Assembly (NCBI GenBank): GCA_027486765.1
Contig: JAIXOO010000379.1
Span: forward strand, 1-32,434
Length of the DNA: 32,434 nt
Source: Saprospiraceae bacterium
GTDB lineage: Bacteria; Bacteroidota; Bacteroidia; Chitinophagales; Saprospiraceae
Direction: 5' to 3'
The position numbers were made by a program, and so were the translations under genes. The notes under the pieces are model-generated. The model searched no databases and was not told the origin of the DNA. It saw only the letters and a program-made list of their open reading frames with translations. Shown one piece after another: positions 7,918 to 27,113 of this stretch (within the stretch, counting starts at the first letter, position 1; each line of letters opens with the position of its first letter).

Positions 7918-8052
7918 GAGTTACGAGTTCCGAATACATGACTTACGAGTTTTGAAGTGGGCTACCGCAGCGGCTTAGACCAAGGCTATGTCAAATTTTC
8001 TGCGGTAGCCCACTTCAAAACTCGTAAGTCATGTATTCGGAACTCGTAACTC
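7918..8052. repeat. Palindromic element 1: 53-bp perfect arms, shared GCTACCGC core
   Basis: Arms at 7918-7970 and 8000-8052 are perfectly complementary over 53 bp, around a 29-bp loop. The inner end of the stem is GCTACCGCAG/CTGCGGTAGC, also found in the palindromes at 14809-14924 and 16101-16216. The outer arm is locus-specific and contains TTACGAGTT twice. It lies between convergent genes (stops at 7872 and 8063), so here it could act as a bidirectional terminator, but there is no run of T after it. Confidence 0.92.
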
Positions 8053-14808: not shown

Positions 14809-14924
14809 AAGGTTTAGGGAGGGTGAGAAGGTGTAGGGAGGTTTAGGCTACCGCGAGCGATTTTGACAATGTACTTCTCTGAGTCCCTGCGGTAGCCTAA
14901 ACCTTCTCAACCTCCCTAAACCTT
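14809..14924. repeat. Palindromic element 2: shared GCTACCGC core, GGTTTAGGGAGG-type arms
   Basis: Left arm 14809-14854 pairs with right arm 14889-14924. The inner ends are GGCTACCGC/GCGGTAGCC, the core shared with the elements at 7918 and 16101, around a ~34-bp loop. The arms consist of GGTTTAGGGAGG-like words. The left arm has one extra 10-bp unit (TGTAGGGAGG, at or near 14832-14841) with no counterpart on the right, plus one mismatch. It sits in the gap between metX and the OsmC gene, both leftward. Confidence 0.88.
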
Positions 14925-14936
14925 CCTCAACACTAA

Positions 14937-16043
14937 TTAGAATTTTTCCGACCCCGGCAGCGCCACATTCGACACCGTCCAAGCCTGCGAAGGCCTGGGA
15001 CTGGCATCTACCTTAGCTTCCGGGGAGAATAAAAAAAGGCGGATCAAGGTTTCAATGCGTTGAAATTCAACCAAAAAACCATCGTGCCCATAAATACTTT
15101 CCAATACGGTATACTGCGCACCAGTAATGCCTTTGGCAATTTGCTCCTGCTCCCGGATAGGAAACAACAAATCCGAAGCAATGCCAACCACCAGTGTATT
15201 CGCCTTTACCGCCTGGAGTGCTTTTTCTACTCCTCCCCTACCTCGGCCCACGTTATGGCTGTCCATTGCGCGGCTCAGTGTCAGGTAAGAGAAAACATTA
15301 AAACGCCGCCAAAGTTTTAAACCCTGATAGCGTTGATATGAACTTGCCCGAAAATCTTCGAGTTTATCGGCATCATCCGTTTGTGACAACTGATACGTGT
15401 CGTAACTGCGGTAGGACAACATGGCAATGGAGCGCGCAGTTTCCAGGCCTTTTTTTCCCGCTTCGGGGTTGTTTTCTTCCGACAAGGTACTGTCCGCATA
15501 AATGGCCATCCGCTGCGATTCGTTGAAAGCGATACCCCAGGGCGAGTGCAGGGCATTGGTGGCCAAAAGCACGAGGTGCTCAAACAAATCCGGCTTTTGA
15601 ATGGCCCACTCCAGCACTTGCTGGCCGCCCATTGAGCCGCCTAAGGCGACATGGATTTTTTGGATGCCCAGTTCTTCTCGGAGCAATTCGTGCGCCGCCA
15701 CCATATCTCGTACGGTAACCAGCGGGAAACTGTGCCCATAGGCTTTGCCGTTGAGAGGATTGATGCTCAAAGGCCCAGTACTTCCGTAGCAAGAGCCCAG
15801 CATGTTGGCACAAACGATGAAATATTTTTCAGGGTCAAAAATTTTGCCCACGCCTACCAATCCATCCCACCAGTCTGCTGCCTCGGAATTGCCCGTAAGG
15901 GCATGGCAAACCCACACGACATTGTCGCCGGTAGTGGAAAGTTGACCATAGGTATGGTATGCGATTTCGATTTCTGGCAGCGTAGTGCCACATTCCAAAT
16001 GGAAAGCTTGTGCAAGCTTCCAAAGTTTGGGTGATTCGGCCAT
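14937..16043 (-). CDS. metX: Homoserine O-acetyltransferase
   Basis: 368 residues, alpha/beta-hydrolase fold. MetX transfers acetyl from acetyl-CoA to homoserine, the committed step of methionine synthesis by direct sulfhydrylation. Diagnostic segments are NVVWVCHALTGNSEA, the oxyanion region NMLGSCYGSTGP, the nucleophile elbow GGSMGGQQ with catalytic Ser, the catalytic Asp in GIASDLLFP and the catalytic His in YGHDGFLVE. The length and motifs fit bona fide MetX rather than a generic hydrolase. The upstream leader is a SAM-I riboswitch with a well-formed promoter, which independently supports the methionine-pathway assignment. A short extension (KVDASPRPSQ...) follows the catalytic domain. 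Confidence 0.95.
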   Translation of the reverse strand: MAESPKLWKLAQAFHLECGTTLPEIEIAYHTYGQLSTTGDNVVWVCHALTGNSEAADWWDGLVGVGKIFDPEKYFIVCANMLGSCYGSTGPLSINPLNGKAYGHSFPLVTVRDMVAAHELLREELGIQKIHVALGGSMGGQQVLEWAIQKPDLFEHLVLLATNALHSPWGIAFNESQRMAIYADSTLSEENNPEAGKKGLETARSIAMLSYRSYDTYQLSQTDDADKLEDFRASSYQRYQGLKLWRRFNVFSYLTLSRAMDSHNVGRGRGGVEKALQAVKANTLVVGIASDLLFPIREQEQIAKGITGAQYTVLESIYGHDGFLVEFQRIETLIRLFLFSPEAKVDASPRPSQAWTVSNVALPGSEKF

Positions 16044-16052
16044 TGACTTTAA

Positions 16053-16279
16053 GCGATTTTATATGCCCATTAATGGCGGGATTTGGCACCGTTGCTAAGG
16101 AATGAAAAACTAAAAATGAAAAATGAAAAATAAGCTACCGCAGCGACTTTTACGCGTAGTGCTGAACAAGTCACTGCGGTAGCTTATTTTTCATTTTTAG
16201 TTTTTCATTTTTCATTGCCCAAGCATGGTTGCCAGAGGTTCGTCGAGCCCGTTCTCTCCCCTCTTCTGTATAAAATCAC
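16053..16279 (-). ncRNA. SAM-I (S-box) riboswitch with enlarged P3
   Basis: On the minus strand, P1 pairs 16269-16279 (GUGAUUUUAUA) with 16053-16063 (UAUAAAAUCGC). P2 begins with AGAGG/CCUCU and an inner GAG/CUC stem. The loop CGGG can form the pseudoknot with CCCG of J3/4. The conserved GGCAACC (16227-16233) starts P3, UGCUUGGG/CCUUAGCA (16218-16225 with 16093-16100). The conserved CGGUGCCAAAUCCC then follows, and P4 is CCAUUAAUGG. P1 ends 9 nt before the metX ATG, so control of translation initiation is likely. AUCAC at 16296-16300 could pair with the 5' strand of P1 and act as an anti-P1. A 116-bp palindrome fills the P3 tip, making the RNA about 227 nt instead of roughly 110-120. Confidence 0.88.
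16101..16216. repeat. Palindromic element 3, at the tip of riboswitch P3
   Basis: Arms 16101-16143 and 16174-16216 pair at 39 of 43 positions. The inner end is GCTACCGCAG/CTGCGGTAGC as in elements 1 and 2. The stem continues weakly through GACTT/AAGTC in the loop. The outer arms are tandem AATGAAAAA/CTAAAAATG units, unrelated to the arms of the other two copies. The four mismatches come from a different order of these units on each side. The element begins directly after P3 base pair 16100 and ends one base before 16218. Confidence 0.92.
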
Positions 16280-26890: not shown

Positions 26891-27113
26891 AAGTTTTTGA
26901 AACAACCGTTCTCAAACCTTAGACTCAAAGCGCATGAATTGCCTCCAGCTTTAGCTGGTGGATAAGCAGTGAACTCTATTTTTGGGCTTTAGCCTCATTT
27001 GCAAAATTGAGGTTTGGGCTAAAGCCCATTCTAGACCTGACCTTCTAACCACCAGCTAAAGCTGGAGGCAATTCAAACGCCAGAGCCTAAAGAACGATTA
27101 TTTCAAAAAACTT
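26891..27113. repeat. Nested palindrome (CTTTAGC family)
   Basis: Three nested inverted repeats share one centre. Outer imperfect arms are about 26891-26912 with 27091-27113. The middle arms are perfect over 27 bp (26935-26961 with 27049-27075) and include CCTCCAGCTTTAGCTGG. The inner arms, TGGGCTTTAGCC/GGCTAAAGCCCA, are 26983-26994 with 27017-27028. Middle and inner stems share the word CTTTAGC. It occupies most of the gap between the CBM9-like and rhamnosidase genes. Confidence 0.9.

Follow-up and report, generated by a model that had tools for sequence, protein, structure and literature searches.

A SAM-I riboswitch upstream of metX has probably gained a dispersed palindrome at the tip of P3, with later replacement of the occupant among sister species

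Stem-loop insertions in riboswitches are known already, and stable variable insertions at fixed riboswitch sites have been described (PMC2258182), but the origin of such insertions is rarely visible. The metX leader in the window (the whole 32,434-nucleotide stretch of DNA analyzed here) raises this question directly, since the P3 arm of its SAM-I riboswitch carries a long palindrome. Where did this palindrome come from, and what became of it in related species? At this locus, sequence is at hand for the source repeats, for a relative with no insert, and for four different occupants of a single slot, so that ideas on how peripheral RNA helices originate and turn over can be tested directly. 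The features concerned are as follows.

16056..16276, minus strand: SAM-I (S-box) riboswitch aptamer, complete (RF00162)
16234..16264, minus strand: P2 of the aptamer (RF00162 alignment, fold)
16085..16233, minus strand: P3 arm including the inserted palindrome (cmscan alignment with long P3 insertion; minimum-energy fold)
16065..16077, minus strand: P4 of the aptamer (RF00162 alignment, fold)
16101..16216, no strand assigned: inserted palindromic element, AATGAAA-like heptad arms around a core hairpin (pairing; dispersed copies)
16134..16183, no strand assigned: core hairpin GCTACCGCAG...CTGCGGTAGC, common to many palindromes with other arms (pattern search)
14937..16043, minus strand: metX, homoserine O-acetyltransferase, downstream of the riboswitch (NF001209)
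14809..14931, no strand assigned: dispersed palindrome with GGTTTAG/GTTGAG-type arms and a near-identical core, between the stop codons of metX and its neighbor
7918..8052, no strand assigned: dispersed palindrome with GAGTTACG-type heptad arms and the same core, between convergent genes

The first-pass annotation had placed a complete SAM-I aptamer on the minus strand upstream of metX, and RF00162 matched there over its full length (16276 to 16056; 62.4 bits against a gathering threshold of 44.4; model positions 1 to 108 of 108). This was the single Rfam match in the window at the gathering threshold, and a search of the genome holding the window (G000) gave no second SAM-I match beside the metX leader. 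The four-way junction of P1 to P4, with its GGCAACC and GGTGCCAA strands, was present in both the RF00162 alignment and an unconstrained fold of the leader, in which P1, P2, P3, and P4 all formed and the insert appeared as an extension of P3 (−93.6 kcal/mol; z = −10.8; 0/200 shuffles equally stable). The metX product scored 347.3 bits against NF001209 (NCBIfam, MetX; cutoff of 331) and 372.9 bits against the related model TIGR01392, below its cutoff of 500. The aptamer ends 12 nt from the metX ATG, and the leader sits in a divergent spacer.

The 116-bp palindrome reported at the P3 tip (16101 to 16216) was borne out by its arms, with 44/49 pairs formed between 16101 to 16149 and 16168 to 16216, and by dispersed copies with the same ends. 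A chance palindrome was rejected, as 20 dimer shuffles of the window yielded no palindrome of at least 22 pairs and the leader fold had the strongly negative z score given above. The junction between P3 and the element, previously called exact, was close to exact; the minimum-energy fold contained a T·T mismatch (16221/16097) and a bulged C (16217). Likewise, the coaxial helix put at about 50 bp corresponds to an extended P3 helix of ∼53 pairs that is not perfectly continuous at the joint.

With its arms of 7-nt tandem repeats, the insert falls into a class of palindromes that are dispersed in the genome. With a 136-nt query made up of the insert (11 to 126) and 10 flanking nt of P3 at either end, matches in G000 at C340, C214, and C72 ran exactly from 11 to 126, and further places did so to within a few bases. 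In the sister species G003, C142 likewise matched exactly, and the best matches in the other two sister species, G001 and G002, were a few bases off at the ends. The presence of end-to-end copies elsewhere in G000 and in G003 agrees with the earlier claim that the insert is a member of a dispersed palindromic family. Matches to the query numbered 113 in G000, 33 in G001, 52 in G002, and 109 in G003; true copy numbers are lower, since palindromes are matched on either strand and the totals also take in partial heptad hits and the query's own locus. The same query gave no match on either strand in G004, the outgroup within the genus. The 20 copies fetched with their flanks consisted mostly of A(A/G)TGAAA heptads around the core hairpin. 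Searched on its own, the core pattern GCTACCGCAG(N10-40)CTGCGGTAGC occurred at 63 sites in G000 (reversed-pattern control, 0) and went with differing kinds of arms, including those at two more places in the window with an exact or near-exact core.

Long palindromes were sampled in stretches of chosen, not random, contigs (L132-L135, L141-L151, L205-L244, and L255-L264 for G000 to G003). We counted 45 in 400 kb of G000, 28 in 179 kb of G001, 51 in 300 kb of G002, 44 in 398 kb of G003, and 3 in 260 kb of G004 (112, 156, 170, 111, and 12 per Mb, respectively). Arms with a period identity of ≥0.5 were found in 116/168 palindromes from G000 to G003, with periods of 7 nt (35 palindromes), 8 nt (29), 9 nt (31), 10 nt (11), and 3 or 12 nt (10); the other 52 lacked a clear period. 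Some palindromes in these four genomes were modular, with different arm types around the common GCTACCGCAG core. With genes roughly approximated by ORFs of ≥120 codons, 147 of the 168 lay between two called ORFs, 14 lay inside an ORF, and 7 near stretch ends, among them the P3 hairpin of G002, could not be classified. The stop codon was ≤15 nt from the palindrome on 95/193 stop-facing sides, and the start codon was that close on 15/101 start-facing sides (P = 3 × 10−9). They were enriched in convergent spacers (54/147 palindromes versus 126/658 spacers; P = 1 × 10−5) and depleted in divergent spacers (8/147 classified palindromes versus 121/658 spacers; P = 3 × 10−5), and none of these 8 was a metX P3 hairpin. 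Because the palindromes hug stop codons and are scarce in divergent spacers, P3 of the metX leader is an unusual site for one. Titles and abstract openings of the papers listed, with subscription journals largely outside the search, yielded no description of these palindromes in this genus or of repeat elements in P3 of SAM-I.

To follow the P3 tip through the genus, we compared five genomes. The metX orthologs were at L017 (G003), L018 (G001), and L019 (G004); G002 was reached through its SAM-I match, and its metX was then located by tblastn. Protein identity to the window metX was 97% for G003, 96% for G001, and 71% for G004, and DNA identity was 92.1% for G003, 89.4% for G001, 79.0% for G002, and 67.8% for G004. 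In the metX protein tree, G000 to G003 formed one group (99/98) with G004 outside; within it G000, G001, and G003 fell together (88/90), and the branching order among these three was not settled. RF00162 matched upstream of metX in 5/5 genomes (G000, 62.4; G001, 66.6; G002, 66.3; G003, 66.4; G004, 72.9 bits). The gap between the insert-less G004 leader and the four with inserts is moderate, and the sequences differ elsewhere too. Unconstrained folding predicted the same general P1/P2/P4 architecture for all five leaders, with 61 P3 pairs in G000, 45 in G001, 43 in G002, 47 in G003, and 14 in G004. The recurrence of the same core in these predicted folds is consistent with the earlier claim that the aptamer core survives the insert.

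The P3 segment measured 136 nt in the window, 88 nt in G001, 96 nt in G002, 97 nt in G003, and 26 nt in G004. G004 thus supplied an insert-less allele with a P3 of normal length, and every P3 observed in the four-species clade (G000 to G003) was filled. An ancestral long P3, the reading that would have undercut an insertion, was rejected: 56/61 distinct parsed SAM-I P3 segments were ≤35 nt (text pattern applied to loci L017 to L127 plus the window; loci not fitting the pattern went uncounted), and the five longer ones came from G000 to G003 and G053, a genome of the same order and another family. On these comparisons, the long P3 looks derived in this group. The SAM-I riboswitch of G053 (L125) has a 75-nt, imperfect, A/T-rich P3. 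A dispersed origin was rejected for it, since only its own locus matched in its genome; long P3 arms can therefore have an origin other than a dispersed family of this kind.

At the same P3 tip, G001, G002, and G003 each carried a long palindrome built on a different 7-nt repeat dispersed in its own genome. The arm heptads were AATGAAA- in the window, GATGAAA- in G003, GTGATGA- in G001, and AGTGAAA-like in G002, and the P3 flanks directly beside the occupant also varied between species. The G003 insert had 175 matches in G003 versus 6 in G000, 11 in G001, 13 in G002, and 0 in G004. The G001 insert had 81 matches in G001, 91 in G000, 63 in G003, 15 in G002, and 2 in G004, and the G002 heptad TGAAAAG was common at the G002 sites listed for a TGA-heptad pattern. 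Counts of that pattern (G000, 181/226; G001, 99/72; G002, 94/77; G003, 327/286) are weak evidence by themselves because a backwards-read control gave about a third to two thirds as many (87/116, 36/18, 74/50, and 124/89, respectively). Each occupant is thus akin to repeats dispersed in its host. An assembly artifact was rejected, as the four genomes with a long P3 are separate assemblies, one of them with a single 8.37-Mb chromosome contig. The idea that an element landed at P3 is thus supported as far as insertion goes, but a single landing is an incomplete account: with different hairpins at the same tip in three sisters, either the slot was filled anew or one occupant gave way to another.

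One way to obtain four related but different hairpins would be drift in place, in which a single ancestral hairpin diverged through slippage and through correction of one arm by the other, and dispersed copies took no part. The four heptads are indeed related (AATGAAA, GATGAAA, AGTGAAA, and GTGATGA), and the arms are still largely complementary. However, the family of the G003 occupant is far more common in G003 than in its sisters, and the dispersed core GCTACCGCAG...CTGCGGTAGC is found in the window occupant and lacking in the other three. In addition, the orthologous palindromes at other sites of G003 and G001 are still of the AGTGAAA/AATGAAA type. We regard drift in place as quite improbable.

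We also compared turnover at P3 with that of other window palindromes having orthologous flanks on both sides (the 7.9-kb spot was omitted, as its flanks were not both present elsewhere). At P3 the heptad type differed in 3/3 comparisons with sister species. The other spots gave seven comparisons: four kept the same general type (the metX 3′ spacer in G001 and G002, the 11.2-kb spacer in G003, and the 26.9-kb spacer in G003), one had a different type (the 26.9-kb spacer in G001), and two were without a palindrome (the metX 3′ spacer in G003 and the 26.9-kb spacer in G002). On these small numbers, P3 has thus been less stable than the other spots compared. Orthologs of the window element pointed the same way. 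Among 12 fetched G000 copies, 5 had orthologs in the 8 foreign loci fetched, giving six pairs (7/8 foreign loci, counted by pair) in which the family was kept every time; this set is biased toward a kept family because the foreign loci were picked by matching the same query. With orthologous copies elsewhere keeping their family, genome-wide homogenization fails to explain the differences at P3.

The four P3 arms also shared a feature, a period-7 identity of 0.52 to 0.87 with three to four in-phase TGA. We defined a TGA-heptad hairpin, after seeing the arms, as one with ≥3 in-phase TGA on either strand and a period-7 identity of ≥0.45. This class made up 6/45 sampled palindromes in G000, 8/44 in G003, 9/28 in G001, and, with the P3 hairpin of that genome left out, 5/50 in G002, and all four P3 occupants belonged to it (product of shares of 0.0008, a post hoc value). 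This agreement favors replacement inside an existing heptad hairpin, or A/U-rich selection, over free independent insertion; the bias could instead be a sign of selection for A/U-rich stems.

Insertion of the same kind was looked for in other structured RNAs. It was rejected for RNase P RNA (spans of 412 to 420 nt with no palindrome inside, 5/5 genomes) and for the 8 scanned of 11 cobalamin riboswitch matches in the five genomes, none of which had a palindrome inside. Hairpin tips in general are therefore not invaded. One cobalamin riboswitch match in G004 (L201; C18:105563-105930) spans 368 nt, versus 184 to 227 nt for the other ten, and has no long palindrome inside. At the rnpB 3′ end, G000, G001, and G003 shared one palindrome type and G002 had another. 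In all four species (L193-L196), a palindrome with tandem repeats begins at most ∼15 nt from where the RNase P RNA match ends on its 3′ side; it is of the AATGAAA type in G000, G001, and G003 and of a TCAGC type in G002, where a second, AGTGAAA-type palindrome lies on the 5′ side. No rnpB-flanking palindrome was found in the G004 locus (L192).

These observations bear on recurrent independent insertion, in which the ancestral tip was empty and each lineage received its own palindrome, either by hairpin-tip targeting or because the tip is the sole tolerated site in the leader. Four differing occupants that each match repeats of their host genome would be expected under this scenario, as would the varying P3 flanks, and type changes do occur elsewhere (the 26.9-kb spacer in G001 and the rnpB 3′ end in G002). 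Nevertheless, at 110 to 170 palindromes per Mb, four hits within a few bases would be improbable without strong targeting, the RNase P RNAs and scanned cobalamin riboswitches are free of such palindromes, and the shared TGA-heptad type of all four occupants (with the post hoc reservation above) also speaks against it. We consider independent insertion rather unlikely.

We therefore favor, as the probable reading, a SAM-I riboswitch that gained a dispersed palindrome at the tip of P3 and whose occupant was later replaced from the dispersed pool within the clade. Under this model, the riboswitch upstream of metX would have acquired a heptad-arm palindrome at the outer tip of P3, most likely in one early insertion before the split of the four species, and copies out of the dispersed pool would then have replaced the occupants. 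Replacement may have been helped by heptad similarity, with in-phase TGA in all four, and could have proceeded by recombination or template switching between similar heptads. This order of events, early insertion and then replacement by copying, is an inference.

How the riboswitch could tolerate such changes follows from the predicted structure. Since the element is self-complementary, it would add length to the P3 helix alone and leave P1, P2 and its loop, P4, and the core unchanged; SAM binding would probably be preserved despite the insert. The SAM-I fold has P2 stacked on P3 and P1 on P4, and the aptamer has been built from three separate strands for FRET (PMC4971091), a design that, together with this stacking, is in keeping with tolerance at the ends of loops. 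Regulation of metX, which would act at P1, could then persist. This regulation is probably translational: the start codon lies 12 nt beyond P1, translation attenuation is described as most common outside Firmicutes, and in sequestering SAM-I switches the ribosome-binding site lies within the 3′ side of P1 (PMC2258182). The different hairpins at this tip in the sister species suggest a tolerated slot, where repeat elements could arrive and leave while the predicted core fold is kept.

A stronger role for the long helix can also be envisaged. Selection might keep a long P3, with a stem of 43 to 61 pairs tuning cotranscriptional folding, pausing, or RNase III cleavage and the repeats merely supplying sequence. 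The retention of a long P3 by 4/4 clade species despite sequence change would fit this, as would the scarcity of palindromes in divergent spacers noted above. Against it, the position may persist without benefit if removal is rare, and G004 and 56/61 parsed SAM-I P3 segments do without a long P3. We judge such selection unlikely. Equally speculative, and improbable in our estimate, is the combined proposal that the tip acts as a docking slot where palindromes enter and replace one another, with the long helix selected for adjusting folding, pausing, or decay of the metX leader.

Dispersed palindromes as such have well-known counterparts. REP/BIME and the Rickettsia palindromic elements occur as many dispersed palindromic copies in intergenic DNA, and the Rickettsia elements also insert into genes. 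The palindromes described here are alike in being many, dispersed, and intergenic, but their arms are mostly short tandem repeats, and arm types are exchangeable around a common core. Heptads within structured RNA have a counterpart in the cyanobacterial STRR repeats in rnpB, where short tandem heptads lie inside the RNA; there the RNA and the phylum are different, and the likeness is by description, not by sequence.

By analogy, the closest parallel is the P6b stem of the cyanobacterial tRNA-Leu(UAA) group I intron, with its mutually replacing heptad types. In Nostoc trnL, this stem consists of complementary heptads (TDNGATT or NNTGAGT), the stem type has been replaced repeatedly, and mobile elements were considered by the authors (PMC4476775). 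Both cases combine complementary arms of 7-nt tandem repeats in a structured RNA with a change of occupant type. Here, however, the RNA is a SAM-I riboswitch in Bacteroidota, not a cyanobacterial self-splicing intron, and the occupants match genome-wide elements. The P3 insert lies in the riboswitch and not in P6b; the relation is one of resemblance only. Compared to known SAM-I riboswitches (RF00162) with variable insertions, the metX leader is alike in its complete conserved core and its place upstream of a methionine gene, and it differs in that the insertions are traceable to dispersed repeat families and the occupant differs at ∼90% metX DNA identity. A riboswitch insertion traceable to dispersed palindromes, with an occupant differing between sister species, was not found among the titles and abstract openings of the papers listed. 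Through this locus, palindromic repeat elements are tied to the evolution of riboswitches, a connection akin to the one suggested by the cyanobacterial intron heptad stems.

Two further spacers merit description. At L136 4062/4063 (G003), the counterpart of window positions 14809 to 14931 is without a palindrome, and the convergent stop codons nearly touch; the metX 3′ spacer of the window and that of G003 give one filled and one empty site at which insertion or loss could be studied. In the 26.9-kb spacer, the palindromes at window positions 26935 to 27075 and at L153 2630 to 2768 (G003) belong to the same family, but between the two the inner segment seems to have the opposite orientation with respect to the arms.
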